A DNA stretch of 42,135 nucleotides from a virus, in IMG/VR virus record IMGVR_UViG_3300026319_000002, positions 1 to 42,135 of that record, one strand, 5' to 3'. Both the position numbers and the translations under genes were made by a program. Every line of letters starts with the position of its first letter. The first letter of the stretch is position 1. The notes under the pieces are model-generated. The model worked only from the letters and a program-made list of their open reading frames with translations, did not search any database and was not told the origin of the DNA. This document shows positions 7,590-40,531 of this stretch, one piece after another.

Positions 7590-9050
7590 TTATGGTCGAT
7601 TAATGCGAATTGCTGCGACGACCTCCGTTGCCATCGCGCTAAAAAGTTCAGAAGCTCGATCGAAATTGTTAAGTTCTCCCGATCCCAATGTTGATTGTTC
7701 AGCTTTTTCGATATCGATGAACCACTTCAAAATCACGGCAAAATATGCTGTGACGTTCATCAACCACGGAATTTCTTTAATACAATCAGTGAATCGGTGG
7801 TCAGTATTTATGCAGACATTAATTCCGGCAACGTGACGGGCGTCACCATTAACGTAAACGTTAAATAATGGTTGGAGAGGACCTAACTCCCGATATTCGA
7901 CATTAATTACTGGCGGATTTTTCGCTTTCCCATGGGCTTTGCCGGATTGAAGCGGATCAACCCGATTAACATTTCTCGTCTTTGGTTCGCCAGGCGAATT
8001 TCCTTCCTCTCCGTTTCCAATACCCGGGCGTTTGCCTCCAGGTTTCCTAATCTCCTTACCTTGCGCTTGAGGCATCAAACGTTTAGCAAAGTGTTTTTCC
8101 AAGAATTTTGCGACCACCGGCGCACCAATAGGAAAATTGACAATGTTCGCTTCTTTTTTGAGATCGCGAAGGACCGGTTCAATATGCGTAAAAAGATGAC
8201 GCGCCAATTTACGTAATTCGTTTAACCCGTTCTTATATTTGTTCAATTTCCATCGAACCGGGGCGACATCATAAACGATAATCTCACCGTAAAATCGCTC
8301 CGGTGAATAATTCTCAAAGCCGGTCTCAGTAAAGCCAGTAACGATTCGTCGATGACCATTATAGATGACCGTCCAGCCGCATTTTCGGCTCGTGTCGTTA
8401 GCCGGTAAGACGCCGGCTCGCCATTCGTAAAGTTTGCTATGCCATTCACCATCACCAGAGCGCGCATTAATCAGTTCGACTGCAGTTGGCGCTTCTAACT
8501 GGGTGCCATTAATTCGAATACCGAAGCCGGATCGTAATGAATGCTCAAATAAATAAGGAAGTTCTTTCATGGCGCGAGCCAGATCATGAAATGCGTCTTC
8601 ACGAAATTCGCGGAAAACTACCGTCGTTCCGATTTCCGCTTGGATGCATTCAATTTCCTCATATAAAAACTGTCCGCTTTCGATCATGCCGTCCCAATCA
8701 GCACGTTGTGCCGTTCCATTCGTTTGCTTCGCTGTCTTCGTGTGCGCTTCCATAATGGAAACAAATGGCATGGAGCCTGTCTTGACACCAACGCCAAAGA
8801 AGCCGATTTTTTCGACGTCTTGTTCTGGCTCAACCGCTAGGTCAACGATACGTCGCGCGTCTGAGCAACCTTGTCCGTTATCAGATGCGCGCATTTCATC
8901 AGGTCCAATTGTTATATCAAGCAAGCCCGCCTTCGCATACTTGCTATTATCGACGATCTCAGCCAAAAACCGGGCCGTGGTCATATCGCTCTCATGAATA
9001 AGACTGAGCAACAGTCGTGTGCCCGGTGGGCGATTCTCTAGCTTTCCCAT
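7590..9050 (-). CDS. GHKL (Hsp90/MutL-type) ATPase
   Basis: A 486-aa protein with all ATP-binding boxes of the GHKL superfamily: N-box FLAEIVDNS (E31, D34, N35), G1 box ASDNGQG (57-61), and G2 box GFFGVGVKTG (83-92). The middle (about 180-300) would correspond to the transducer-type domain. A charged Gly/Lys/Pro-rich linker lies near 340-390, followed by a C-terminal domain ending in a helical segment. It has no kinase, gyrase B or MutL endonuclease signature, so it is closest to generic Hsp90-like or MORC-like phage ATPases. The ParB-domain gene ends 6 bp upstream, so the two proteins are probably made together. A DNA-clamp or remodelling role in replication or recombination is inferred. A defence or anti-defence role is also possible. 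Confidence 0.8.
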   Translation of the reverse strand: MGKLENRPPGTRLLLSLIHESDMTTARFLAEIVDNSKYAKAGLLDITIGPDEMRASDNGQGCSDARRIVDLAVEPEQDVEKIGFFGVGVKTGSMPFVSIMEAHTKTAKQTNGTAQRADWDGMIESGQFLYEEIECIQAEIGTTVVFREFREDAFHDLARAMKELPYLFEHSLRSGFGIRINGTQLEAPTAVELINARSGDGEWHSKLYEWRAGVLPANDTSRKCGWTVIYNGHRRIVTGFTETGFENYSPERFYGEIIVYDVAPVRWKLNKYKNGLNELRKLARHLFTHIEPVLRDLKKEANIVNFPIGAPVVAKFLEKHFAKRLMPQAQGKEIRKPGGKRPGIGNGEEGNSPGEPKTRNVNRVDPLQSGKAHGKAKNPPVINVEYRELGPLQPLFNVYVNGDARHVAGINVCINTDHRFTDCIKEIPWLMNVTAYFAVILKWFIDIEKAEQSTLGSGELNNFDRASELFSAMATEVVAAIRINRP

Positions 9051-9056
9051 AAAATT

Positions 9057-9932
9057 TTAGCAGTTGAACTTTTCGAGGTCGGAAAGGATCGCGTCTTGCG
9101 CGAGCTCATGAATCAAAGCCGCAAATTCCGGCGGAAAGTTACTTAGAAACTTTTGCCAATATTTCGGCCAGGTTCGTTCGAATTGTTTTTTCGTAGATTC
9201 ATTGTTCTGGTTTTGGCTACTGCGCAATGTTTTGCCTTTAACTAATGGTTGAGATTCTTTTTCGTTAGTCTTTTGCGAAACCAGATCATTACCTTGTTTC
9301 AACGTTAATTGACCATTCATCACTTGCGTTCTTACCTCGGGATCCTTATCAACGGCGACCGCATAAGTAGCCTGACGCCGTGATCCACCGCCGATCGCCG
9401 CGATTTGACCGATCGTCGACTGTGCGTGCATCTTTGTTAGATCGCGTGGTTCAGATGGTGAACCACATTTGGGGTTCACCTGCTCCTTTGGCTTTCCAGT
9501 AGGATTTCCGGATTGTCCTTTCTGAAACTTACTAACTCTCTTTTTTAGTTCGTTTGTCATAGTGATCTTTCCAAGAAAGTCCAGTGCAACTAACATGCGT
9601 TGGGCCGGAGTGAGACTTCGCCGATTAAAATTTCGGTCGAAGATAAACTGTTCATCACTCGGGATGCTTTCATGCCGATTAACTTTGCAAAACTCCTCGA
9701 TCGACATAATAACCGGAGTAATTTGCAATTCACAACAGGCCCGGTAACGATGGCGCCCATCGAGAACTAGACCCTTAGAATTAACAACGATCGGCTCAAG
9801 CTGACCATTTGCCCGAATACTCTCCTTAAGCTCATCGTACTCTGTTTCCGTAAGAGCCGGGAAAGCTTGGCAAAGTGGGTGAATTTTTGCCGTCTTCCAT
9901 TGCGACATCAAATCAATAACAATTTGCACCAT
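9057..9932 (-). CDS. ParB N-terminal-domain DNA-binding protein
   Basis: A 291-aa protein. Residues about 18-90 form a ParB/sulfiredoxin-like domain: HPLCQAFPALTETEYDELKE, IRANGQLEPIVV, then LDGRHRYRACCEL at the nucleotide-binding motif. A helical region RRSLTPAQRMLVALDFL and a predicted helix-turn-helix near STIGQIAAIGGGSRRQATYA follow, with a charged Gln/Asn-rich linker and helical C-terminus. No ParA is encoded nearby, and the partner gene is a GHKL ATPase instead. Chromosomal ParB proteins are CTP-dependent DNA clamps, but whether this one binds CTP cannot be told. In-frame ATGs at 9932 and 9908 are both possible starts. Confidence 0.8.
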   Translation of the reverse strand: MVQIVIDLMSQWKTAKIHPLCQAFPALTETEYDELKESIRANGQLEPIVVNSKGLVLDGRHRYRACCELQITPVIMSIEEFCKVNRHESIPSDEQFIFDRNFNRRSLTPAQRMLVALDFLGKITMTNELKKRVSKFQKGQSGNPTGKPKEQVNPKCGSPSEPRDLTKMHAQSTIGQIAAIGGGSRRQATYAVAVDKDPEVRTQVMNGQLTLKQGNDLVSQKTNEKESQPLVKGKTLRSSQNQNNESTKKQFERTWPKYWQKFLSNFPPEFAALIHELAQDAILSDLEKFNC

Positions 9933-11862: not shown

Positions 11863-12284
11863 CTCTTGAGCGGGTCCGGTAAAGCACGCTCTTTCCAGCT
11901 GCCGGCCGCACAATAGCGATTCGCTTTGGAGCAGATCTCGAGCGCTTCCTCTCTGGAGTAGCGACCAGCGGCGGCGAGGCTTTCGGTATAACCCCAACGG
12001 CCCGGAGCCCACCACGCAGCGTGTTCTTCGCTCCAGATGACCCAATCTTTAGCTTGTTCATTCATGCGGCCTCGATCTAGCGCTTCGCGTTCTAGATTCA
12101 CTAACTCCCGCAGGCGCTTGATTTCTTCTGCGTCGTTCTTGATTCGCGCTTCTAACCCGTCGGTCTCTATCAGCGCACGACGGGCGCATTCTTGCCAGCC
12201 AGCTTGATAGGATACCCAAACATACTTGGCGTCGTAGACGATTGCGCACGCCTCATCGCTCAGCGGATCCTGTTTTCGGTTCAT
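11859..12284 (-). CDS. Conserved phage-type hypothetical protein
   Basis: A 141-aa protein. The N-terminus contains a coiled-coil-like stretch (IKNDAEEIKRLRELVNLERE). The C-terminal half carries the pattern IWSEEHAAWWAPGRWGYTES with GRYSREEALEIC, a motif seen in many small phage and mobile-element proteins of unknown function. Its ATG overlaps the integrase stop (ATGA), so it is translated with the integrase. Confidence 0.65.
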   Translation of the reverse strand: MNRKQDPLSDEACAIVYDAKYVWVSYQAGWQECARRALIETDGLEARIKNDAEEIKRLRELVNLEREALDRGRMNEQAKDWVIWSEEHAAWWAPGRWGYTESLAAAGRYSREEALEICSKANRYCAAGSWKERALPDPLKS

Positions 12285-13471
12285 GCGGCCTCAATCTGTA
12301 GGATCTTGCCCGCGGCCGGCTCCGGATTCGGGCATTGGTTGAACCATTCCCGGCCGGTTTCGGCTTCTAAGATATCCCCAACATAGAACCGCTTCACGGT
12401 GCTTTCGAGATCGCCCATCGCTTTGGCGACGTCGCCCATCGACCGGAACGTCAGCGCATAAGTGGCGTAGGAATTGCGCAGCGCGTTCTCTGGCATCTTG
12501 ACCTTGATTTTGTGGAAAAGCTCGGCTTGCAGCCGTTGGAGCGTGCTTTGACTGATCTCGATCATCGGACCCGCCGGCTTGGCTACCATTTCCAACCATT
12601 GCCTGGCCGCCGGTTCGAGCGGAATAAGCCGTTTCCGATCTTTGGCCTGGGTTTGCTTGGCGACTTCGTCCCGAACGTAAATCAAATTTTTCTGCCAAAG
12701 AATATCGGTCCATTCAATCACTGAATCGCCCGGGTGCGAGGAAATGATTTCACAGCGGCGCATGCCGGCCAGCCCGCGGAGTACGTAGAATGGCAAAAGC
12801 CGTTTGAAATAATCCGTTGGCTGCTTCTGTTCCAGACCGGCACATACAAATAAAATACGGCGAAAAATATCGATCTGGAGATATTCGTCATTTACTCCCC
12901 ACCGATCGGTTGAGGGAACGTCATCCATTAAATTGGTCGCTAGGTAGCCCGAGGTTTTGAGCCAACCAATGAAGGGCGAAATATTCTTGCGGTGACTCTT
13001 GCGGGTGGATCCGGCTTTGATCGGCGCTAAATAATCTCTCAGCTTTTGGGCGGTGAGATCAGTGCACTGAATCGGGCCCATCGCTTCAGAAAGTCGAAGA
13101 ATGCACCGGCGTCGATCGGCGATCGTGCGCGGATTTAGTTCCTCATGCTGGCAGTGAATATAAATGAAATCGCTAGCCGCTTCTTCCAGGGTCGCCTTTT
13201 TGTTGACGCTCAAAATCGTGCTCCGGTAATGCCGGCCGGCCTCAATCATTTGATCGAGAGATTCAAAAGTGCGTTCCGCGGTTTCGAGAAAATGCTGCCG
13301 TTCTGAGTTGATTTGAATCAAACGTTGCGACGGGATTACAAATTCCCGGATCTTCGCTTCGGCATCCTCTTTCTTTTTGAAATAAAGTTGCTGTTCTCGC
13401 CCGGTTTGGCTGAGCCGCGCCGGCACAATAACCCGGTAACAATTTCGGGACGGATAATATTTAGCTTTCAT
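12281..13471 (-). CDS. Tyrosine-family site-specific integrase
   Basis: A 396-aa integrase. The N-terminal region (1-60) is basic and probably binds arm sites, residues about 95-185 form the SAM-like core-binding domain, and 200-370 the catalytic domain. The box I Arg lies in GLAGMRRCEI (238/239), the box II Arg is R332 in LRNSYATYAL, and the nucleophile is probably Y363 in KRFYVGDI. The histidine before R332 is Asn329 and the second His/Trp position is Asp354, so both usual histidines are replaced. Such deviation occurs in integrases of some environmental phyla. An attP-like tRNA fragment lies 160 bp upstream. It establishes and maintains lysogeny. Confidence 0.85.
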   Translation of the reverse strand: MKAKYYPSRNCYRVIVPARLSQTGREQQLYFKKKEDAEAKIREFVIPSQRLIQINSERQHFLETAERTFESLDQMIEAGRHYRSTILSVNKKATLEEAASDFIYIHCQHEELNPRTIADRRRCILRLSEAMGPIQCTDLTAQKLRDYLAPIKAGSTRKSHRKNISPFIGWLKTSGYLATNLMDDVPSTDRWGVNDEYLQIDIFRRILFVCAGLEQKQPTDYFKRLLPFYVLRGLAGMRRCEIISSHPGDSVIEWTDILWQKNLIYVRDEVAKQTQAKDRKRLIPLEPAARQWLEMVAKPAGPMIEISQSTLQRLQAELFHKIKVKMPENALRNSYATYALTFRSMGDVAKAMGDLESTVKRFYVGDILEAETGREWFNQCPNPEPAAGKILQIEAA

Positions 13472-13481: not shown

Positions 13482-13630
13482 ACTTTTTAAATCGAGGCGC
13501 TATGAATTGCTCAGTTGTACCAGTTTTGCAAGCCTTATTTACACCTGTTTGATACTCTTTAATCCTTTCGATGTCCTGGAATTTGAGAGGGTTTCTCCTC
13601 TGCCGATCGGCTTCTAGACTTGATCTCCTA

Positions 13631-13680
13631 GGGAACTACCGCGCTTGGATTCGAACCAAGATAGGCGCCTCCAAAGGGCA
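13631..13680 (-). other. Candidate attP core: tRNA 3'-end fragment
   Basis: The minus strand contains CTTGG-TTCGAAT-CCAAG (13660-13644), a perfect T-arm with the canonical TTCGAAT loop. It is followed by CGCGGTAG, suitable as the 3' half of an acceptor stem, and preceded by a segment that could be variable loop and anticodon arm. No D-arm or 5' acceptor half is present, so this is a fragment and not a tRNA gene. A tRNA 3' end beside an integrase is the usual attP layout. The host tRNA identity cannot be fixed from this alone. Confidence 0.5.
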
Positions 13681-16847: not shown

Positions 16848-17111
16848 TTAATTACCTTTCGTTTGTTCTTTCAAAGTTTTGTCGATCTCATCCAGATATT
16901 TGATCATCTCTCTTTGGTTCGCCCCATCGACTTCAAGAATTTTCTCTAAGACCTCGTAGTGTTTGCTTTGGATATCGACGAGCAACTCTTGTTTAATCTC
17001 ATCTTGACCGTGCTCAATTCCCGGCACTTGGCTTGCGGTATAGGTCTGCATCACCAATAGTAGACCGCCGCCAACGGCCGCGACCATCTTTGTTATCTGT
17101 GCCTGATCCAT
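16848..17111 (-). CDS. Holin-like small membrane protein
   Basis: An 87-aa protein with one hydrophobic segment at residues 8-28 (MVAAVGGGLLLVMQTYTASQ) and a long charged, probably coiled-coil C-terminus (YEVLEKILEVDGANQREMIK). Position immediately before the endolysin is the main argument for a holin. Some phages place hemolysin-XhlA-like or spanin-type proteins here, which is the alternative. Confidence 0.55.
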   Translation of the reverse strand: MDQAQITKMVAAVGGGLLLVMQTYTASQVPGIEHGQDEIKQELLVDIQSKHYEVLEKILEVDGANQREMIKYLDEIDKTLKEQTKGN

Positions 17112-17122
17112 TGCGTGATTGC

Positions 17123-18919
17123 TTATTTCCCCATGGTCGGAGCGCCGCTCAACTCATCATAATCATGTTGCATCGACATAACGCCGAAATTGCCGCCAGC
17201 CTGGCTGGGCGGGTATTCTTTGAAAGTGGCCATGAATTGGCCGACAATTTTTTGAGTCGGCACTAGTACCCAGGCATTGCGCATAAACCATTCGCCGTAG
17301 AGCATCGATTCCTCATGGAATCGTTCGAAGGGATCCATCCGCAAATTTTCGATTAACGGCACATTGGCCTGGCGTGTTTCGCCAGTTAAGAGATTACCTT
17401 CGAAGGTCTTGAAATTGATTTTCCAATCCCCGTATCGAACCGCGCATAATTCGCTATTATCACTGAAGTAAAAAAACTCTTGGCGCGGATCGCTGACATC
17501 TTTTCGCTTAAGCGTGATTGCGGCGAAATAAGGCAACATATTGTAACCGTCTAAATGCGCCTTGAAACTCTTGTCGCCAATCTTTGTGCCCTTTAAAAGA
17601 TCTTGGGTTAGGCTGTCATTGCCGGCCGCGGCGGTCAGAGTCGGAACCCAATCTTCTGCGCTCATGATATCGTTGATTACGGTGCCTGGTTCCAAGACGC
17701 CCGGCCATTTTACTACCAATGGGACAATAAACCCACCATCGAACGTGGTGCCCTTCTCACCGCGAAATGGTGTGTTACCGCCATCGGGCCAGGTCATGAG
17801 CTCGGCACCGTTATCGGTCGTGAAAAGCACAATCGTATTATCCGCAATCCCGAGCTTATCCAGAGTATCGAGCAATTGGCCGACATTGGAATCAAGTTCC
17901 ATCATTCCATCGGCATACAACCCGTACCCTGATTTACCTTTCCACTTATCCGAGAGGTTCGTCCAAACGTGCATCCGACTCGGATTGTACCAAACAAAAA
18001 ACGGATTATTCCGGCGGGCGGCCGTGGTCATGAAATCGATTGTCTTATCGGTAACAACCTCATCGTAGGTGGTCATATCATATTTGGGCGATGGCATTCC
18101 TTTTGGGGTTGCCATGTTTGGCCATGGCGGCAATGGTCCTTCCTCAGTAATGGTTTGCTTGCCGACCTGGCCCCAGCGTGGATCAGTGCGCCGATCATCA
18201 ATTAGGCTGGCCCGACAATCCACAATTCCACGCGGCCCGAAGTTGGCATAAAATGGGGCTGGCGGATAACCGCTTTGCCATGGTTCCTCGAGCGCATTGA
18301 GGTGATAAAGGAATCCGAAGAAAACATCGAACCCGTGGACAGTCGGAAGGAACTTATTCAAATCACCCAAATGATTCTTACCAAATTGTCCGGTGCTATA
18401 ACCCAAAGCTTTCAAGTGCTCGGCTAATGTCGGATCGCTATCTTGCAAGCCTTCGGCCGCCCCGGGTAAGCCGACTTTGGCAAGCCCAGTTCGCATGGGC
18501 GAAAGACCAGTCAGAAAGGTTGCCCGGCCAGCGGTACAACTCTGTTGGCCATAGTAAGCAGTAAAGATCGCGCCTTGGCTTGCTATTTTATCAATGTTCG
18601 GAGTCCGACCACCCATGAGGCCGCGGTGATAGCAAGACAGATTCCAGATCCCGACATCATCGGCCATGATCACCAGAATATTTGGGCGCGCGTTTTTATC
18701 CAAAATCCCTTTAACCATCATATGCCCGATAATGGCCGAGACTTGCAATTGGCCGAGTAATTGGGAACCAAGGCCGGTATTGGGAATCGGTTCCAGCGAT
18801 TCGCTCGGTGGCGTTGCATTTTGGGCCAAGAGCATTTGGCCACGGCCACATTCGGGACATACTTGGGCGTTAGCGTAGCTAGCGAATAGCAGCAAAGGGA
18901 ATATTGATAATCGTTTCAT
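17123..18919 (-). CDS. Secreted arylsulfatase
   Basis: Full-length sulfatase (598 aa from ATG 18919). That start gives a signal peptide, MKRLSIFPLLLFASYANA, with likely cleavage before QVC. The frame is also open to 18964. Metal and catalytic residues are all visible: NILVIMADDVG (Asp-Asp, 87-88), SCTAGRATFLTG with the C-x-A-x-R formylglycine motif (Cys128), GKNHLGD (Lys181, His183), PSRMHVW (His317) and FTTDNGAE (Asp369, Asn370). The C-terminus is complete, ending in a QFMATFKEYPP-type block like bacterial arylsulfatases. The cysteine must be oxidised to formylglycine by a host enzyme. It lies between a fibre adaptor gene and the lysis genes. It may remove sulfate from host surface or extracellular polysaccharide, or act during lysogeny. 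A CPEC motif just after the signal peptide is unexplained. Confidence 0.9.
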   Translation of the reverse strand: MKRLSIFPLLLFASYANAQVCPECGRGQMLLAQNATPPSESLEPIPNTGLGSQLLGQLQVSAIIGHMMVKGILDKNARPNILVIMADDVGIWNLSCYHRGLMGGRTPNIDKIASQGAIFTAYYGQQSCTAGRATFLTGLSPMRTGLAKVGLPGAAEGLQDSDPTLAEHLKALGYSTGQFGKNHLGDLNKFLPTVHGFDVFFGFLYHLNALEEPWQSGYPPAPFYANFGPRGIVDCRASLIDDRRTDPRWGQVGKQTITEEGPLPPWPNMATPKGMPSPKYDMTTYDEVVTDKTIDFMTTAARRNNPFFVWYNPSRMHVWTNLSDKWKGKSGYGLYADGMMELDSNVGQLLDTLDKLGIADNTIVLFTTDNGAELMTWPDGGNTPFRGEKGTTFDGGFIVPLVVKWPGVLEPGTVINDIMSAEDWVPTLTAAAGNDSLTQDLLKGTKIGDKSFKAHLDGYNMLPYFAAITLKRKDVSDPRQEFFYFSDNSELCAVRYGDWKINFKTFEGNLLTGETRQANVPLIENLRMDPFERFHEESMLYGEWFMRNAWVLVPTQKIVGQFMATFKEYPPSQAGGNFGVMSMQHDYDELSGAPTMGK

Positions 18920-18941: not shown

Positions 18942-19325
18942 TTAGGGTGGGAAAATCGGCGCATCCATTACGACGAGCGGGCCCGCGCTCAGGACGGAGC
19001 TTTCTGCAGCGATCTGTTGTTCTAAATACCAGCGGTAACTTCCTTCAATTGCTAAGGTCTTTGTTTCCAAACCGGAAAAGGAAAAGATTGCTGATTTAGA
19101 TGCATCAACGGTGAAAGTCTTTTTAGCTAAGACCGCGGAATCAAGCCTTAGTCCATCACTCAAGAGCGGAGCAATAATTAAGGCGAGAATGGCGCTGGTC
19201 GGATCGAGGGTCTTGCCGGAGTCATCAATGATTTGAAAATCGGGTTTCCAAAGCTGGTTTCGGAATACATAAAGCGAAACCGCAAAAGAGCTCGGGAATT
19301 GGGGCGTAACCGTTACCGGAATCAT
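18942..19325 (-). CDS. BppU-like small adaptor protein
   Basis: A 127-aa beta-rich protein with the pattern FRNQLWKPDFQIIDDSGKTL, SAILALIIAP and EGSYRWYLEQQIAAESSVL, comparable to BppU N-terminal domains. Its ATG overlaps the stop of the collar fibre gene (ATGA). It probably works with that fibre, as the equivalent gene at 15278-15628 does with the second fibre. Confidence 0.6.
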   Translation of the reverse strand: MIPVTVTPQFPSSFAVSLYVFRNQLWKPDFQIIDDSGKTLDPTSAILALIIAPLLSDGLRLDSAVLAKKTFTVDASKSAIFSFSGLETKTLAIEGSYRWYLEQQIAAESSVLSAGPLVVMDAPIFPP

Positions 19326-20773
19326 GTTTTAATGATTTTGTTAGTCACAAAAAACGGTTGCAGACTACTATGAGCCGCGCCAGCTCCAGTGGAGGCCCCA
19401 ACCGAAATGCCGGTCGGCTGACTTTGAACACTTATACCAGTGGGCCCGGCGACATTGATCACATTTGAGGGATTAGAATTGATTGATAGATTAGCGTCAG
19501 CAGCAACTATCCCAATCCTAGTCTGTGCTGAATAGGTGGTGTCGGTCGGGCCAGGCTGTTGGGTAATTACTCCGCCCACCGGACCAGCTCCGCCCGAGGT
19601 GTTAGGAAGTGAATTTAACGGGTGGACATGTCCCGGATCGGTGATCGCGTGCCCGTGCGGCGTTTGGGTAATACCGTGGCTATGACCGGGATCAGAATGC
19701 GGGTGATTATGCCCCGGATCAGTCAGGGTATGTAAATGGCCCGGATCATTCACCGGGTGAATATGCGGAGGCAATTCATTGAGTCCGATCGGCAATGCTT
19801 CGGCTCCCCCCGATTGGCCCAATGTACGATTGGTTAGGCCGCTCCCTTGCCCTGCACCGATGGCAACCCGGCCCCGGGCATCAGGCAAATTAAAGCTGGT
19901 GGTTCCATTGCCGGCACCGTATTTGATGCCGATAATGGCAAAGAGCGCCGGGAAAGTGGTCCGACTCGCTTCGGATCCATCGCACAAAAGCCAGCCACCT
20001 GGCGCCGTATCGCCGGCGAAATCCATCATCACGCCCGGCGGTAAAAATCGGTTTTGCCAACTGCCATCGCCGGCTAATGCATCGGATTGATTGCCGCTGA
20101 GCTTTGGCAAAGATCCGGTGCGAGCAATGGTGGCAACCGGGATCGGGTCGACTCCATTATCCAAATGCGTCGGTGCATGATGGGGGATCGGCGCCCATTG
20201 ATGGGTACCAATTAAAACTTGGGTCGGATCATTGGGAATCGCTCGAAGCGAACCACTGCTAACGGTATCGGCTAACCCGATTGGATCAATACCAGTGCCC
20301 CGGTGATTGGCCCCATGCAATTGGATGACCGGCGTCAAAGTGATTGTGGTCGAAACCGGGGCATCTTGAGAATAGGCGATTAAAAGCGCGTAATCTCGGA
20401 CAACGGCACTATCGGGAAGACTCGGCGTGACCGTATCGCCGGTATCATCGCCGGTCGTGGCATAGGCAAAAAGAATGAGCGGACCACCGGGCAAATGGGC
20501 CCAAACCCCGATTTCATTGACCTTAAAGGTAACGGGTGCATTCGCACTAGAGACACTTAAACGCACCGTGGTTTGGTAGAGAACCTGGGCATTGGCGCTG
20601 GTGGGATTGGCATCCATGACGTAGGAAACCAGATCCGAATAATTGTGGGGATCATCGGCCGGCAGAGGGAACCCTTTGCCGACCGTGACCTTGGTAATGA
20701 GAACGGTTTGCCCAGCTCCGATCGCATCATTGATCAATTGACGCCCCGGATTGGTGATATAGAGCCTGGCCAC
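19322..20773 (-). CDS. Collar-type tail fibre protein (P2 H position)
   Basis: A 483-aa protein. The N-terminus ARLYITNPGRQLINDAIGAG with KVTVGKGF is the baseplate-attaching domain of gpH-type fibres. A middle linker follows. Residues about 245-335 form a tail-collar domain (PGGWLLCDGSEASRTTFPAL, FNLPDARGRVAIGAGQG), followed by repeated DPGH and HPH/HSH units that resemble iron-binding His clusters in fibre tips. The C-terminal end reads QPFFVTNKIIKT. It directly follows gpI, the P2 position of the receptor-binding fibre. No separate fibre-assembly chaperone is seen. Confidence 0.85.
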   Translation of the reverse strand: MARLYITNPGRQLINDAIGAGQTVLITKVTVGKGFPLPADDPHNYSDLVSYVMDANPTSANAQVLYQTTVRLSVSSANAPVTFKVNEIGVWAHLPGGPLILFAYATTGDDTGDTVTPSLPDSAVVRDYALLIAYSQDAPVSTTITLTPVIQLHGANHRGTGIDPIGLADTVSSGSLRAIPNDPTQVLIGTHQWAPIPHHAPTHLDNGVDPIPVATIARTGSLPKLSGNQSDALAGDGSWQNRFLPPGVMMDFAGDTAPGGWLLCDGSEASRTTFPALFAIIGIKYGAGNGTTSFNLPDARGRVAIGAGQGSGLTNRTLGQSGGAEALPIGLNELPPHIHPVNDPGHLHTLTDPGHNHPHSDPGHSHGITQTPHGHAITDPGHVHPLNSLPNTSGGAGPVGGVITQQPGPTDTTYSAQTRIGIVAADANLSINSNPSNVINVAGPTGISVQSQPTGISVGASTGAGAAHSSLQPFFVTNKIIKT

Positions 20774-20783
20774 TACCCAATAG

Positions 20784-21350
20784 TTACCGGAAGAGCTGAT
20801 AGCCGTAACTGGCGATCGCCGGACAAACCTTTACCGGTGGCCCGGTGAAGGTGCTAAAGGACGAAATCCCGGCAAAATAAGAGCGCACATTCTTCATTTT
20901 CAAAATCATCCGCACCATTTTAGCGACTCTGACCGGGTCAACCAACGGATCGGCAATCACGATCCGAAAGGTGTCATGCGGGGCCGGTGGCTTTTCCTGC
21001 CACCATTCGATGATCTCGGCGTGATTAAAGGCGATTGTGAGCAGATCCTTGATCGCGGCCGGAGTCCCTTTTTGGAGTTTATCGAGAATGGCGCGTCCGC
21101 AAAGAATCCGTTTCACTGGCAAGGGCAAAGTCGCGTCGTAATAATCCAGATTGAAATGATAGACCGCTAAAAAATCGATTACGTTTTCGGGTTGGGCCGC
21201 TAGATTGGCAATCACGATATTTTTCTTTATTTGGGCTCGGATATCGGCCAACAGCGGATCGAGCGATTTGGCCGCAGCGAGAAAGAATTGATCCTTGGCC
21301 ATGGCCGGATTGAGAAAGGCGGTCAAGGAAGCAGTTTCGAGCTTTATCAT
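20784..21350 (-). CDS. Baseplate protein I (gpI-like)
   Basis: A 188-aa protein with the gpI hallmarks: DPLLADIRAQIK, a CGRAILDKLQKGTPAAIKDL block and an EWWQEKPPAPHDTFRIVI block. In P2 it is a wedge component that links J to the fibre. Its ATG overlaps the gpJ stop by ATGA, and the fibre gene follows after 10 bp. Confidence 0.85.
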   Translation of the reverse strand: MIKLETASLTAFLNPAMAKDQFFLAAAKSLDPLLADIRAQIKKNIVIANLAAQPENVIDFLAVYHFNLDYYDATLPLPVKRILCGRAILDKLQKGTPAAIKDLLTIAFNHAEIIEWWQEKPPAPHDTFRIVIADPLVDPVRVAKMVRMILKMKNVRSYFAGISSFSTFTGPPVKVCPAIASYGYQLFR

Positions 21351-22522
21351 TTATCAGTTTGCAACCCTAAATAGATGATTTGGGGATCATTGACCAAGGT
21401 CGCGAGTTCGCTTTTGCTTAAGCTTTGGTAAACCGGCGAAATGACTTTGCAATAGGAAGCACCCGAATCCATAACCATTTCTGAGAGAACGGCCGGATTA
21501 ATTGAACCACCCAACCGGTTGGAATTGGTGTGCACAAATTGGTTCACCGCGGCCACGACATTGGCTTTGATCTGAACCGCATTATTGGCGTCACCGGTAT
21601 CAATCGCATATTCAAGGGTTATCGAATAGGCCACTTGGCTCGGAGCCAATACGGTCACCTTGGCGCACAGATCGCGGACATTATCCGGGTTAATCGCGGC
21701 CGCGACCTTGTCAAGCATAGCTTGATTGGGTAACTGGCCGTTTTCTAGGAGCACCACAATCTGCACATTGCCCGGTGGAAATCCATCTTCCGGCCCGGAC
21801 ACACCGACTTGAGCAATTGCGATATCGGCGGATTCGGCAAAAAATTTGTAAGCGCCATAGCTGCCAGCATTCGAGTAAGAATCGGTGACGTCATAGATTC
21901 GTAACCGATAATCGGCATCCTCTTCGACCGCGCCACCGCCGGCGGTTGCGATGATATTGGTGACGGTGACGGCAAAGGTACCGGTCCAAGTGATTAAATT
22001 AATCAGATCACCCACTAGTAGCCCGTTTCCATCCGGACCATTAATAGTGCAGCGAGCATCAACTTGGCCTTGGATGTTTCCGGCCGGAATGATCAAATCT
22101 TTGTCGGTGCCAAAGCTCACATTGGGCCGGCTGGCGCTTCCGATTAAGGTGCCGGCCGGGATCACGGCATCGGTGACTAAAATGGTTGATAGATTAAATT
22201 GCAGCGTAGTGGTGGCCGGTGAGGGTGAAAGTCGCAGACTGCGATTTCCATAAATCGTGGCCAAAGCATCCAGAAACCCGCCGCTACTAAATGGCAAAAT
22301 ATTTTGTTTGGCGCTTTGATCGATTAATTCGCGTTCCTGGACCAGATAGGCGACCAGACTAACGAGAAAATGGTAACGCCGATCGGCCTGGGTTAAGAGC
22401 AGGACTTCGCCGGTATCAGCGAGCCAAGCATTTTGGAAATTGGCGACGATGGCATTTTTTAAAGCCGTGATATCGCTATTAACAAAAGAGATCGGGGGAA
22501 GATTGGCGAAGGGATCACTCAT
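21347..22522 (-). CDS. Baseplate wedge protein J (gpJ-like)
   Basis: A 391-aa protein matching Baseplate_J: ERELIDQSAKQNILPFSSGG, a GTLIGSASRPNVSF beta region, a central GGGAVEEDADYRLRIYDV with NAGSYGAYKFFAESAD, and GFPPGNVQIVVL. It forms the baseplate periphery. Overlaps with both W and I are ATGA-type, as expected for the W-J-I block. Confidence 0.9.
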   Translation of the reverse strand: MSDPFANLPPISFVNSDITALKNAIVANFQNAWLADTGEVLLLTQADRRYHFLVSLVAYLVQERELIDQSAKQNILPFSSGGFLDALATIYGNRSLRLSPSPATTTLQFNLSTILVTDAVIPAGTLIGSASRPNVSFGTDKDLIIPAGNIQGQVDARCTINGPDGNGLLVGDLINLITWTGTFAVTVTNIIATAGGGAVEEDADYRLRIYDVTDSYSNAGSYGAYKFFAESADIAIAQVGVSGPEDGFPPGNVQIVVLLENGQLPNQAMLDKVAAAINPDNVRDLCAKVTVLAPSQVAYSITLEYAIDTGDANNAVQIKANVVAAVNQFVHTNSNRLGGSINPAVLSEMVMDSGASYCKVISPVYQSLSKSELATLVNDPQIIYLGLQTDK

Positions 22523-24105: not shown

Positions 24106-25302
24106 TTAAAAATCCAGGCATTTATGAATGTCTAGAGTGGTAGTCGAACCCGCGCCGCTTTTGCCCAAAAAATGATGTTCCACGTGTAAGACGAGCCAAT
24201 TGCCATCGAAGCCTTTGGCGAATCCGCTGACTGCATAAACGGTCGAACTTTCCACCGTCAGATTGAGCGGCAAAACAAAACTGTGTTTCCGCCGTTTTCG
24301 GTTTTTACTTTTGAGTTTGGCCAGCGCTTGACCCGTGGAATCGGCCAATTCATCGGTATGCGGAGTTGCGGGTGGATCATAGAGCGGCCCGGCCCAGCCG
24401 ACCTCGCCAGCCTTGGCGCCAGGAACCTGGCCTTCGCCCAGTGGCGGTTTACTGGTCGGATAAGCGACGTGCGGGTTCTCTTTAGTGTGAAGAGTGGGTA
24501 AGCCAGCTTCGGCCCCTGGATCGGTGGCAGTTGATTTGACGGTCGCGCCGAGCTGATTCGAGCGCCAGGCGCTCTCGGAATTAGCGTATACATCCTCGAC
24601 ATTGTCGGTCAAATACCAGCTTTCGACTCCGCCTACCCCGTTGATCCCACCCGGATTATTTTTGGTCGGGCAAATAATGGTTCCGATCGCACTTAGAGCT
24701 TCCTGTTCCGAATAGCCCCTAATCCACAGGCCGCCATTTTTGACCTTGAGAAACAGATCATGCTGTTTGCATAAGCGGTTGAGCAAATTATAGTCGGATT
24801 CGTCGTGTTGATCTACCCTGGCCAACGTCGGATTATCCTTGGTTAAATAATGAAGGCTCAAATTGTTCTTTTGCGCGATCTGGCCAGCTAATTCTTGCAA
24901 ATTGGTCGAGTCCCAAGCAAAGCTTTTGCGCTCGAGTCGACCGCTACTAGCTGGACTAATCGAGGACGCATAAAGATTGACAACGGTCCCACCCGGTTTG
25001 CTTTGGCTGATATCAACTCTGGAGACCATAAAAGAACCGGCGACATGATCGACAATCTCACCCGGATAATTCCAGTTCTCGGTATGGAAACTCAAAGTCA
25101 AGGGCACGACTGCTTTCAGGGTCCAGGTCAACCGAAACCGGCCTTCCGGATCCGCTAAACGCAACATGAGAGCATCGCCCGAAAATTGGATTCCCTCTTT
25201 GTAAATGAGCTCGATCAGCGATGGGTAAACCTCTTTGGTCACGTCAACACCATCATAGGTAACGATCGGCCGCGCAGTCCGCGCCTGGCTAAGCAGTGAC
25301 AT
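24106..25302 (-). CDS. Baseplate hub protein D (gpD-like)
   Basis: A 398-aa protein of the late-control-D/gp27-like family. Key blocks are [60 protein letters not shown] and [10 protein letters not shown]. It forms the trimeric hub that receives the spike. The HNH gene upstream runs 14 bp into it, and a 12/13 copy of its first 13 bases sits 61 bp upstream inside that gene. Confidence 0.88.
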
Positions 25303-25741
25303 ATTTCCGCTTCGGGCGATTCTTGATTTTGATAATGAATTTCAAATAAGTAAGCAGCGACATCGGACTTCTTTTATGTGTTACAAAAGGTCTTTTTGTT
25401 CCTCGTGGCACACCACCAGGTCTTTTATTTTCTGCTTGTTCTTTTTTTGTCGCCCACTGACAGTTTCTAGGTTCGTAATTCCCGTTGTTATCAATTCTGT
25501 GAATCGTCATTTTCGGATCGGGTTTCAGGCCCATATCTGAAAGAAAATTTTCAAAAATTTGCCATCGGTCACAAACGGTTATTCCCCGAGCACCGTAATG
25601 AGCAAAATCATATCTTTTGGGATCGCGACACCGGCGCCGCATTTCAACCCAAGTAATATATTCCGGCGTCAATTTTTCATGGCTCGCGTGTCCATGTTTG
25701 TATCCTGATTTGTTCCCCAAATTGTAAGATCCTCGATTCAT
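25289..25741 (-). CDS. HNH homing-type endonuclease
   Basis: A 150-aa protein. The N-terminal half has [20 protein letters not shown] and [12 protein letters not shown]. The HNH core is [20 protein letters not shown], followed by [10 protein letters not shown]. This layout is typical of free-standing HNH endonucleases that move between phages. It is squeezed between X and D: its ATG (25741) overlaps the X stop, and its stop lies inside D. The basic C-terminus RPKRKYVTA is read across the D ribosome-binding region. Confidence 0.85.
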
Positions 25742-25952
25742 GCGGTTACAAATAGTTGGCCCCAAGGCACATTGCTCAAATTAGTGGAGGTGTTAACGGC
25801 CGGAACTTTAACCTGAATTCCGGCATCAAATTTGACCACATCGGCGTAAGCGGGATTTTCCCGCATCAGACTCGAGGCGAATCGTTCCGCTCCATAAATC
25901 CGAAGCGAAATCTGGTCCCACATCTCGCCGCCAATCGTGTTGACAATTGTGA

Positions 25953-25956
<4 letters not shown>
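25738..25956 (-). CDS. Tail protein X (LysM-like)
   Basis: A 72-aa gpX homologue. [20 protein letters not shown], then [19 protein letters not shown], is the LysM-like pattern of P2 gpX, which links hub components and may touch peptidoglycan. It starts with an ATGA overlap on the tape measure stop. Confidence 0.82.
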
Positions 25957-34186: not shown

Positions 34187-36121
34187 CTATTGGTTGCCGG
34201 CATCGGTCGACGCGGTAAACGCGATCGCGTGCCGGAAAGCAACATCGGTCAACAAATTCATGATTACCCGAATCTGGAAATTTTGGGCCAAGCTATAGGG
34301 ATCGGTCACGATATCGAGCCCGCTCCAAGTCGCTATCATCAACTCCCTCCATTTCCCGAAAATGACCCGATCCGCCGGGATCTGTTTGGTGGCAAAGGCC
34401 CGGTAACCGTTGACCTCACTATCCGGTTCCCAAAGGTAACTTGGGAAATTGACCGCCTTGGGCAAAACCTTCCATTTCGCTTTCACATGCGGGGTCGTGA
34501 GATAAGCCGCAGTTTCATCCAATTGCACATTGGAATCTTCGACCGCACCTTCGAAATTGACCACCGAGCCATAAGTCGCTGCGGCGCCAAAGGTCTGATC
34601 CGGCGAGCGCAAAGCTGGATTGTACAAATTACCAACTCCGCTCACATTAGCGCCCACCGTTAAAATCCCGGTCGGTTGCGGATTAGCGCCGGGACCGGTG
34701 CCAGCAATCGCCGCCAAATCTTGGCCCAACGCAATAATCCGAAGGAGATCGTCGCGAACAATGACCTCGATATCGAGCGAGGATTGAGCCAAGAGTAGTT
34801 TCGAATAAGCGGTTTGGGTGGCCAAACGTTTCGGGGCCAGGGGCACTTGATCAAAGGCTTGAGCGCTCGGTGCAATCGCGGCATTTTCCGCTTCCCACGT
34901 TGCGGTAGCGGCACCGGTTTGGCGCGGCATACTTAGATTGCCGACTAAGCCACCCATCATGGTGGCACCGGCTTTGCCCGTAATGACCAAATTGCGAAGG
35001 AGTTCGATTAAACTCGGTTCAATCGTATTCTGAATCGTGAGACCACCGGCGCTGGGCACCCCGGCACTGAGTTGCCGGGTAAAAGCGAAATCGGGCATGA
35101 AAAATCCGGCGGGTTGCCGCCCAAGTTGCCGGGTGAGTTCAACACTGACTTCGCGCTCAAGTCCGCTTAAGCCTTCCTGACCTTCTCGAAGCGCTTTTAA
35201 GAGGGAATAGCGCCCAATATCGCGCTGGGAAACGTTAACCGGTTGCGGTACTGCCGGCACAATCGTCGATTCGCCGCGCTTCATTTGTTCATCGAGAATA
35301 AAGCGCTGGAATTCACCGACCGCTCGGCCCTCGGTCACGAATCGATCGGCGTCGGTTTTATGTTTGTAAAAATCCCCTAACCTCATGAGATCGCGAACCC
35401 GAAGTTGTTCGGCACTTCGAGCATCAGTGATCGCTTGTTCGTTGACTTCGATTTGGGGTTCCATAGATGGCGCTTGATTCATTGGAGTAGATACCGGTGG
35501 TTCGGGAGTGACTTCCTCGCGCGGATTAAAAACTCTGACCTCATAACCTTGCAAAGTTTCGCTCCGGCCAATGCCGACATTGGTATCGGCCGGGATATTA
35601 ACCAGACTTATTTCGATCGGTTCCCAGCGTTCGATCGTAAAATAATCTTCGTCTTCGTCTTCATCCGGTTTTTCTTCTTCATCCAAAAGGTCATCGAGCT
35701 CGTCCCGTTTAAGCCGGCGCATATCGTGGACGATGTAACCGACCGAAATATTGGTCCGGATCCGAGCCTTGATGTCGCGTAAAATTTCGCGGACCTGATC
35801 AGTTTCAGAAAATCTGGCGGTGGCGTAGCCTTTGCCGTTTTCAAACTTGTATTCGCTAATTACCCCGATCTGGCTTCGCCAATTGAACCGGTCATGATCC
35901 AGTAAAAAGGGCACCATTCCCCGATCGAGCCGAGCCGTAACAATGGCCCCTTTCTCGTGGGAAAGGGATTCATGGCCGAACCAGCGCGGGATAAAAGTGC
36001 GACTGGAAAAGGAAAATTTTGCTTCCCGTTTTTCTTCGTCCACATCCTCGCTGCGAACCTCACAACCGCGGGTTTGAATCAATGCTTTCGGCGGCAGCGT
36101 TGGGATCTTCTCCGTATCCAT
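34187..36121 (-). CDS. Fused HK97-type prohead protease and major capsid protein
   Basis: A 644-aa fusion. Residues 1-190 form an S78 prohead protease, with His76 in FLLDHDRFNW, Ser126 in TNISVGYIV and Glu170 in EPIEISLVNIPADT, the expected catalytic triad. An acidic stretch (144-160) interrupts it. Residues about 205-320 form a helical scaffold-like delta region, and about 335-644 an HK97-fold capsid protein (SAGVPSAGGLTIQNTI, GNLSMPRQTGAATATWEAEN, KLLLAQSSLDIEVIVRDDLL). Self-cleavage should release the capsid part in the prohead. The start lies within the portal 3' end, a 62-bp overlap in another frame. Confidence 0.9.
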   Translation of the reverse strand: MDTEKIPTLPPKALIQTRGCEVRSEDVDEEKREAKFSFSSRTFIPRWFGHESLSHEKGAIVTARLDRGMVPFLLDHDRFNWRSQIGVISEYKFENGKGYATARFSETDQVREILRDIKARIRTNISVGYIVHDMRRLKRDELDDLLDEEEKPDEDEDEDYFTIERWEPIEISLVNIPADTNVGIGRSETLQGYEVRVFNPREEVTPEPPVSTPMNQAPSMEPQIEVNEQAITDARSAEQLRVRDLMRLGDFYKHKTDADRFVTEGRAVGEFQRFILDEQMKRGESTIVPAVPQPVNVSQRDIGRYSLLKALREGQEGLSGLEREVSVELTRQLGRQPAGFFMPDFAFTRQLSAGVPSAGGLTIQNTIEPSLIELLRNLVITGKAGATMMGGLVGNLSMPRQTGAATATWEAENAAIAPSAQAFDQVPLAPKRLATQTAYSKLLLAQSSLDIEVIVRDDLLRIIALGQDLAAIAGTGPGANPQPTGILTVGANVSGVGNLYNPALRSPDQTFGAAATYGSVVNFEGAVEDSNVQLDETAAYLTTPHVKAKWKVLPKAVNFPSYLWEPDSEVNGYRAFATKQIPADRVIFGKWRELMIATWSGLDIVTDPYSLAQNFQIRVIMNLLTDVAFRHAIAFTASTDAGNQ

Positions 36122-38143: not shown

Positions 38144-40531
38144 TTAGTTGCTTTGGTTTAATCGAGTTTCTAATACCACAATGCGCGCTTCGAGTTCTTT
38201 AATTTTGGCCACTGCAATCGCCAATACTCCGGCCATGTCATAGCTTTTTATTCCCTCTTCATTTTCGTACACCGCATCAGGCATTCCCTCGTAAACGTGA
38301 TCTGCAAGGAAGCCGAAATGAAGCCGGTCAATATCTGGATCAGGCATCTGTACCCGACCAGCTGGAGCTTGTAAGGGGTTATCGATTGGGATCGGCGCCC
38401 ATTTAAAGCGAACTGGCTTCAAAGCCTCGAACGCAACAGCAGCTTCGTCCGGGTCAACCGGCGCAATATCGGTTTTAAGCGAAGCATCCGAAGTCAATTT
38501 TACTCCATTAGCATAAACGTCTCTTGTGACCTGAAGATCACCACCGGGAGCGGTTTTGAATTGGGTCTGTAAACCATAACCCGCATTACCACATGCAAAT
38601 TCGAAAGCCGTCACGGTACCGTAATAACTGTAAGGACCTACTTGATGAACGATGATAGCCGCATTAGCGGCCGCATCCCGCCCACTAGGAACAGCAAATC
38701 GAATAGCGGGCCAATCTTGTCCGACCGTGGTGTTGCTTTTGTAAATCCGCAGATAACTGTCGTTCAGACTCGCGGCTATACCACCTCCGGCATTAATCGA
38801 CAAACCAGCGCCGCCACCAGTTTCCGTAATATCAATCGCATTGCCACCGACAGAATTATTAATAGTCAGGGCGTTCGCTGAAGTGACAGCGGTAATAGAT
38901 AACGGTCCCGACATATTATCGCCAGTCTTAGCTACCTTAGTGGCGACAGACGCAGCAGTAGCGTAGCGAGCATCCCCGTTGATCGTATCGATAATATCGC
39001 GCCGATTGCTGCCATCATTGTTTTCAATACCGGGCTGAGTATTTCCCGAATGACATCGAATGGTCAGACCGGTACCAACCTTCTTAAAAAACCTACCTCC
39101 ACCGTTGCAAGTTAGTCCCTGGCCATCGATATCGGTCTGGAACGCTTCGGCCCCAGTACCCGCAACATGCACCGCGATTCCGCCATTATTGTTAGTAACC
39201 GACACCGCATCGGTCGTTGTATTATCGGTAACAGCGATAGCATATCCACTAGAACCGTTAGTGATATCCAGAGCATCAGCAGCAGTGGTGCTGATTAGAA
39301 TCAAGGTACCGGTCATGGTATCGCCAGCCTTGGCCACCTTGGTGGGATCAGTTGCGCTCAGTACCTTAATATCAACGTACTGTTTAGTTGCAGCCTGCAA
39401 ATTAGCTATAGGATCAGCCGCTAAGAGTACCGCTGGAGCATTAATTTGACCGGCCCAAATCGTTTGTGGAGGTGAAGCTATCGCAGTACGGAAAATTTCT
39501 CGCTGACCATAACCGCCGTTCCAAGTATAAAGTATGAAAATTCCTTCCGCGCTTCCACCAACAATATTGCCATCCCAAATTGCAGTAAGCTGAGCTAGAG
39601 GACGGCCATCGGCACTACGTAACACGATGCCGTTATTGGATTGATTCGCTACTCCCGAACCATAAAGATTGAGTTGAGCATCATTCTGAATACTCAAAGC
39701 ACCCGTCATCGTGTCGCCAGCCTTCTTCACATGCAGAGGGTCGAGAGTCAGACTGCTATCGACATAATTCTTGGTGGCAGCATCCTGCGGATTAACTGGA
39801 TTACTCAGCGCGGTGATCCGCCCAGTACCACCCAGATTGATCGCCGTACAAGTGAGTCCATTGTTATCAATCTGTAACTTGGTATTGCCGGCACCAATCA
39901 GCACAAAAAGTGCGTTGCCCACACGCATGAGCCCATAATCCAGTGAACCGAGCGCCAATCCGGCCGTGTTGGGGTCCCCTCCTGGCACCTGCAATGGGCC
40001 AGTCATGGTATCGCCAGCCTTGAGCACTTTGGTCGGATCAGTGGCCGTCAGTACTGCGATATCAACGTAGCCTTTCGTGGCCGCACCGAGCAAATCGATC
40101 GGATCAGCCGAAAGCACCAGCAGGCCCGTCATGGTATCGCCGCTGCGCTCGAGCTTGGTTCCTTCCAAGAGCGAGAGCGCATCTTGCACATTATCCTGAC
40201 CGACTATTTGCGGTACCACCGTGACATTGGCGGCGGTTACTGGTGCTCCCCCGATCGCGATCCGAACCCATTGCGGGCTCTGATCACAAAAGACCCAATC
40301 CGCTTGATTTAAATCCATGCCGGCAATCGGCCCGCTCGGCACCGTGCCGCCCTTGGTGCAAATCACATAATCATTGACCCGCAAAATATCGGCCGGTGGT
40401 AATGGCCCATCGGCAATCCCGGTAAAGACACTGAAATGACAAAGACCGGTCGAACCGTCAATCGTGCCAATGGCGACCTGATTTTTCACCAGCACCGAAC
40501 CCGCACCGCCAATGGAACCGAAACCTCCCAA
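38144..40531 (-). CDS. Fibre protein with S74 self-cleaving C-terminal chaperone
   Basis: A 795-aa fibre. The N-terminus (1-110) is a glycine-rich attachment region. Five AGDTMTG-type repeats at roughly even intervals (RSGDTMTGLL, KAGDTMTGPL, KAGDTMTGAL, KAGDTMTGTL, KTGDNMSGPL) with ATKGYVD-type partners mark a long trimeric beta shaft. The C-terminus has SDASLKTDIAPVDPDEA and PVRFKWAPIP, the S74 endosialidase-type intramolecular chaperone with the cleavage Ser before Asp, ending in a coiled coil (IKELEARIVVLETRL). It is encoded between terminase and portal, far from the tail fibres, so a head fibre is possible. Confidence 0.85.
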   Translation of the reverse strand: MGGFGSIGGAGSVLVKNQVAIGTIDGSTGLCHFSVFTGIADGPLPPADILRVNDYVICTKGGTVPSGPIAGMDLNQADWVFCDQSPQWVRIAIGGAPVTAANVTVVPQIVGQDNVQDALSLLEGTKLERSGDTMTGLLVLSADPIDLLGAATKGYVDIAVLTATDPTKVLKAGDTMTGPLQVPGGDPNTAGLALGSLDYGLMRVGNALFVLIGAGNTKLQIDNNGLTCTAINLGGTGRITALSNPVNPQDAATKNYVDSSLTLDPLHVKKAGDTMTGALSIQNDAQLNLYGSGVANQSNNGIVLRSADGRPLAQLTAIWDGNIVGGSAEGIFILYTWNGGYGQREIFRTAIASPPQTIWAGQINAPAVLLAADPIANLQAATKQYVDIKVLSATDPTKVAKAGDTMTGTLILISTTAADALDITNGSSGYAIAVTDNTTTDAVSVTNNNGGIAVHVAGTGAEAFQTDIDGQGLTCNGGGRFFKKVGTGLTIRCHSGNTQPGIENNDGSNRRDIIDTINGDARYATAASVATKVAKTGDNMSGPLSITAVTSANALTINNSVGGNAIDITETGGGAGLSINAGGGIAASLNDSYLRIYKSNTTVGQDWPAIRFAVPSGRDAAANAAIIVHQVGPYSYYGTVTAFEFACGNAGYGLQTQFKTAPGGDLQVTRDVYANGVKLTSDASLKTDIAPVDPDEAAVAFEALKPVRFKWAPIPIDNPLQAPAGRVQMPDPDIDRLHFGFLADHVYEGMPDAVYENEEGIKSYDMAGVLAIAVAKIKELEARIVVLETRLNQSN

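Follow-up and report, generated by a model that had tools for sequence, protein, structure and literature searches.

A complete S1 sulfatase gene between the fibre and lysis genes of a myovirus-like phage, with a possible role in desulfating polysaccharide during phage spread

The window, by which we mean the whole stretch of DNA analysed (42,135 nt), is an entire IMG/VR virus record, IMGVR_UViG_3300026319_000002. An exact 127-bp terminal direct repeat in this 42 kb sequence indicates a complete circular assembly, and its set of genes (terminase, portal, capsid with a weak protease match, tail sheath, baseplate and integrase) identifies it as a complete temperate myovirus-like phage. The first-pass annotation had reported a complete phage-encoded sulfatase at 17123-18919; the observation is real and the coordinates are right, with the gene on the minus strand. 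The features relevant to this gene are as follows.

12281-13471, minus strand: tyrosine integrase, 45-47% identical to the integrase of IMG/VR locus L013
16242-16847, minus strand: endolysin-like protein (phrog_315, E = 2e-7; weak PG_binding_3 match)
16848-17111, minus strand: holin-like protein of 87 aa with one apparent transmembrane segment and a coiled coil (topology judged by eye)
17123-18919, minus strand: S1 sulfatase of 598 aa, with predicted signal peptide (residues 1-18), low-complexity linker, AIIGH helix and sulfatase domain
18524-18538, minus strand: formylglycine motif C-T-A-G-R (C128)
18692-18865, minus strand: N-terminal extension with a CPEC motif, a linker and the SAIIGHMMVKGILDKN helix (residues 61-76)
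18866-18919, minus strand: predicted Sec-type signal peptide MKRLSIFPLLLFASYANA, cleaved before Q (a rule-based call, not SignalP)
18942-19325, minus strand: small gene of 127 aa, fibre module, no family match, upstream of the sulfatase
19322-20773, minus strand: tail fibre/collar protein
20784-22522, minus strand: baseplate gpI- and gpJ-like genes, syntenic with those of loci L013 and L015, which carry a sulfatase in the same slot

The sulfatase ORF runs from an ATG at 18919 to a stop at 17123; the plus-strand frame across the same interval contains many stops, and a plus-strand reading was rejected. An alternative in-frame ATG at 18964 would give a 613-aa form, and a classical signal peptide is N-terminal solely with the start at 18919. 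The Pfam Sulfatase family PF00884 matches residues 94-448 (613-aa numbering) with E = 1.7e-52 and 179.1 bits, against a curated cut-off of 25. By family, the window gene is an ordinary S1 sulfatase with each testable feature of the family. It is separated by 22 bp from the upstream 127-aa gene and by 11 bp from the downstream holin-like gene, which in turn abuts the endolysin-like gene, so that the late tail/lysis position given in the initial description holds; the names 'fibre adaptor' and 'holin' are assigned by position and topology only. Gaps of this size are too short to hold a moron-type promoter for the sulfatase alone.

Elsewhere in the window several other observations were made. Upstream of the integrase, positions 13630-13679 resemble the 3' half of a tRNA (with a GGTTCGAATCC T-arm) and are 84% identical to the L013 sequence; the T-stem changes between the two keep the pairing (TTGG/CCAA versus AAGG/CCTT). 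This segment is probably an attP core within a tRNA gene and could name the host. The major capsid gene (34187-36121; Phage_capsid, E = 1.4e-29) seems to encode a fusion whose N-terminal part resembles a prohead protease (weak Peptidase_S78 match). A large fibre gene that includes a chaperone of the S74 endosialidase type (38144-40531) lies upstream of the portal gene, apart from the other fibre genes, and the early region encodes a GHKL/HSP90-like ATPase protein (7590-9050) beside a ParB-like gene (9057-9932). A possible homing-type gene (25289-25765; 43% identity to a gene of locus L022, no Pfam match) overlaps the tail genes 24106-25302 and 25738-25956. Shine-Dalgarno-like tetramers precede 9 of the 33 gene starts checked, an unusual context for translation initiation. 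The sole match of the integrase in the phage collection is to an Akkermansia phage (21.6%); together with the few Shine-Dalgarno-like sites, it hints at a PVC or Bacteroidota-type host.

The active site is intact, as the first reading of the sequence had it. The motif [CS]-x-[PA]-x-R is present as C-T-A-G-R at residues 128-132 (598-aa numbering), the metal ligands (DD...DN) are D87, D88, D369 and N370, and the catalytic Lys and His residues are K181, H183, H317 and K389. All of these are invariant in an alignment of 15 sequences containing both phage and bacterial members, and they align with the motifs of human arylsulfatase A (ARSA). An AlphaFold2 model built from 15 sequences is of only moderate quality (mean pLDDT 72.5, pTM 0.79), with residues 1-73 unreliable. 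In a Foldseek search the model was most similar to PsFucS1 (7aj0, E = 1.6e-31, TM 0.63/0.74), followed by human ARSA, and the predicted structure has the alkaline-phosphatase-type fold with a sulfatase C-terminal domain. The protein would thus be expected to hydrolyse sulfate esters after formylglycine maturation. The FGE-sulfatase family PF03781 had no match in the window phage in a search that was positive in 4 of 14 control genomes. Self-maturation by an FGE of the phage's own was therefore rejected, and maturation must be supplied by the host, a need that had been anticipated.

The N terminus is where the phage proteins depart from their bacterial relatives. By rule, the window protein starts with n-, h- and c-regions (hydrophobic peak 1.88) and an AxA cleavage site, in line with the signal peptide already proposed for it. 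The model places the N-terminal helix at residues 52-75, largely within its unreliable 1-73 region. Just ahead of the catalytic domain, an AIIGH motif is common to the sulfatases of the window, L003 and L033 and is absent from the sampled bacterial homologues; these three phage proteins have signal peptides and carry no fibre module. N-terminal extensions of 65-147 residues, mostly Pro-rich, characterize both virus-only clades described below, and the sampled bacterial members mostly have 5-45 N-terminal residues, the longer ones having uncertain starts. The sulfatases of L013, L015 and L014 are without signal peptides. At 9704-9835 of L013, and likewise in L015, a candidate tail-fibre/BppU-type N-terminal module with a Pro-rich linker stands in place of the signal peptide. 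The first 44 residues of the L013/L015 extension match phage tail fibres and a BppU baseplate protein; with a best E of 7e-5 and most of the remaining matches at 0.03-0.7, this similarity is suggestive of such an identity.

Could the sulfatase have entered the record by host contamination or chimeric assembly? A second IMG/VR contig, L002, also has this block, in the order fibre, 127-aa gene, sulfatase, holin-like, endolysin-like and Pro-rich gene. Across 4199 aligned columns the two copies show no mismatch and differ by a single in-frame gap of 9 bp; L002 is a separate contig that may share the window's sample. L003, a divergent contractile-tail phage whose sheath is 30% and whose sulfatase is 65% identical to those of the window, has its sulfatase between a fibre-type gene and a connector/sheath/tube/tape-measure run; such a comparable setting in a second phage cannot be explained by a single bad assembly. 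The codon usage and GC content of the sulfatase gene also match the rest of the phage. The chimera and contamination explanations raised at the outset were rejected on these three grounds.

Alignment-based scans of IMG/VR, made in two runs, yielded 28 loci each. The baseplate genes of L013 and L015 are homologous to and collinear with those of the window, and L013 has a homologous integrase (the integrase scan found one relative only, on L013's own contig). In both, the sulfatase follows the fibres and lies beside a one-TM protein; the L013 copy also neighbours a GH46 glycosidase. Like these two, other sulfatases have clear phage settings: they lie next to the terminase small and large subunits (L014), between a TerS-like gene upstream and a portal gene downstream and adjoining a GH46 gene (L033), next to a GH19 endolysin-like gene with terminase and portal also present (L031), with tape measure and tail fibre (L023), with terminase and portal (L022), and with tape measure and integrase (L016/L017). 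GH46, the chitosanase family, is thus found beside a sulfatase in two unrelated phages (L013, 11941-12660, minus strand; L033, 12528-13307). We excluded L012, L018, L021, L024-L029, L032 and L034-L036 as phage-borne because of contig ends or host-like neighbours, and set aside L019 (sulfatase broken across frames) and L030 (GTA-like appearance). No sulfatase match was found in the stretches examined of L062-L067, relatives by baseplate gpI from distant P2-like phages. Deposited phage genomes gave weak matches only, the best reaching about 39% across a fragment. PHROG 19870 (unknown function) matches the window sulfatase with E = 1.3e-35, so that unnamed distant sulfatase-like proteins do exist in reference phages. 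Among predicted viral structures (BFVD), sulfatase-type matches occur solely in giant viruses of eukaryotes, which agrees with the initial remark that sulfatases do not normally serve as virion or lysis proteins.

A tree of the catalytic region (50 rows, 496 columns) places the window, L003 and L033 in a virus-only clade (support 100/99), sister to enzymes from Variovorax, Phyllobacterium and Desulfuromonadales, a group that also holds L016/L018. L013, L015 and L014 form a second virus-only clade (100/100) elsewhere in the tree. A single clade for all six was rejected (AU test, p = 0.002; the second clade is long-stemmed and we picked this grouping after seeing the tree), and with it, from tree and test alike, the idea that all virus copies descend within one phage lineage. 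Different sulfatases therefore occupy the same slot, between fibres and integrase, in related phages. Bacterial homologues were sampled from Pseudomonadota and Desulfobacterota and by scanning 84,980 species for an exact pattern, so the virus-only clades could break with further phyla. Between L013 and L015 the sulfatase has dS 0.40, dN 0.018 and dN/dS 0.045, below the dN/dS values of the other tail genes compared (gpJ 0.124, gpI 0.066, a fibre 0.24); the gene is under purifying selection in these relatives. The notion of a passenger recently taken from the host, or a chimera, with no role in the phage may thus be largely dismissed as very improbable: many bacteria carry several family members, but a mismatch-free second contig, homologous phages with similar slots, phage-typical codon usage, a phage-specific N terminus and purifying selection in relatives all speak against it.

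Taking together the intact gene with its predicted fold and residues, the late-operon position, the homologues in independent phages forming two virus-only clades, the selection in relatives and the lack of an FGE, we propose, with a probability of about one half, that this is a selectively maintained phage S1 sulfatase, expressed late and exported, that desulfates envelope or extracellular polysaccharide so that progeny spread. The gene would be transcribed late, together with the tail and lysis genes. While still in the cytoplasm, its product would be matured by the FGE of the host, or by an enzyme that does this anaerobically; Sec would then export it, and it would be released into the periplasm or when the cell lyses. 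At that point it could strip sulfate esters from polysaccharide, in the envelope or outside the cell, belonging to the host or to neighbouring cells, which would let progeny leave, diffuse and reach new cells. By analogy, it may be a de-decorating enzyme comparable to phage deacetylases and depolymerases, and in L013/L015 the virion itself may carry an enzyme of equivalent chemistry. From position and sequence we infer export, late expression, catalytic activity, the polysaccharide substrate and the benefit; a sulfated surface polysaccharide in the host is assumed. Three points run against this reading. The closest bacterial homologues include proteins lacking a signal peptide (Variovorax, Phyllobacterium), and the subfamily may for this reason include small-molecule sulfatases; the L003 gene lies outside a recognisable lysis cassette; and the L013, L015 and L014 proteins are without signal peptides.

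The first-pass annotation had listed entry, exit, sulfate supply and a changed lysogen surface as possible functions. Sequence does not separate these. The missing own-promoter gap and the position in the late operon by the lysis module make a late role in the infection cycle more likely than nutrition or lysogenic conversion. Among the alternatives, the one that survives best, though we consider it unlikely, is a virion-borne sulfatase, situated on the tail or elsewhere on the particle, that desulfates a receptor polysaccharide at entry. The gene directly follows the fibre genes, and the 44-residue fibre/BppU-type match with a Pro-rich linker and no signal peptide in L013/L015 makes virion attachment plausible in the wider group. 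However, the proteins of the window, L003 and L033 have signal peptides in place of a fibre module, and an exported protein would miss the cytoplasmic assembly line. The earlier argument that the signal peptide points to export and not to tail incorporation accordingly needs limiting to the window phage.

A slightly less probable alternative is an auxiliary metabolic gene whose product would supply the infected cell with sulfate or sugars cleaved from organic sulfate esters. S1 sulfatases have this role in bacteria, the nearest bacterial relatives are host-type enzymes of free-living proteobacteria, and the GH46 gene adjacent in L013 and L033 could be a polysaccharide-degrading partner; but the late tail/lysis position recurs in several unrelated phages, and no transport, assimilation or other metabolic partner genes adjoin the sulfatase in the window. 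Still more doubtful is lysogenic conversion, in which a prophage-expressed sulfatase would alter the surface or diet of the lysogen. The window phage does have an integrase, and L016/L017 carry a related sulfatase (57%) beside an integrase at a prophage end, yet the window gene is embedded among late genes with no space for its own promoter, unlike typical morons.

Returning to late, exported desulfation, we note that related viruses kept or separately gained sulfatases in late-gene neighbourhoods, which suggests that desulfating host surface sugars helps them. Somewhat less confidently than for the window gene itself, we suggest that tailed phages repeatedly capture S1 sulfatases into the fibre/lysis region and refit them with phage-specific N termini, either a signal peptide followed by a linker or a fibre module. 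Such proteins would make up an unrecognised class of desulfating enzymes that clear sulfated polysaccharide at exit or entry. If so, the soil bacteria infected would produce surface glycans whose sulfation hinders phages, phages would take part in the desulfation of organic sulfur, and phage sulfatases would offer new tools for sulfated glycans. With two virus-only clades and one slot in related phages, selection becomes testable.

Several known systems invite comparison. PsFucS1 belongs to SulfAtlas subfamily S1_13 (PDB 7aj0; PMC8484680). It resembles the window protein in predicted fold, in the C-x-A/P-x-R type motif, in metal and catalytic residues and in having a signal peptide; at about 26% identity it is the best solved match and not a subfamily assignment, and the window protein differs in its phage late operon and phage-specific N-terminal linker. 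In the search for relatives that had been suggested, homologues from Variovorax, Xenophilus, Phyllobacterium and a Desulfuromonadales MAG proved to be among the closest bacterial ones, being 58-60% identical in the catalytic region and forming the sister clade; in contrast to the window protein, they either lack a signal peptide or have one that runs straight into the catalytic domain, and they have no Pro-rich linker and no AIIGH. Among known phage enzymes, tailspike deacetylases and depolymerases take off acetyl groups or cleave capsule. Like them, the window sulfatase is encoded with tail genes and would act on host surface polysaccharide; unlike them, it would use sulfate-ester chemistry and has a signal peptide instead of virion attachment. 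A viral chitosanase has been described as an auxiliary carbohydrate enzyme of soil viruses (PMC9485262); the likeness lies in a carbohydrate-active enzyme on soil-type phages, with GH46 adjoining the sulfatase in L013 and L033, and the difference in that the window enzyme is a sulfatase in the tail/lysis region. The giant-virus proteins in BFVD (Yasminevirus, Satyrvirus, Tetraselmis virus 1) share the sulfatase fold at 14-22% identity and belong to eukaryotic viruses. A viral sulfatase from groundwater is cited in passing in another report (PMC10029852), and FGE genes have been reported in Pseudoalteromonas phages (PMC10232697). In the open-access literature we found no study of a phage sulfatase, or of a phage encoding and exporting one in its late operon, which is not proof of absence. 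Set beside these systems, what is unusual for an S1 sulfatase here is its ownership by a phage, its genomic place, its N terminus and its repeated capture.
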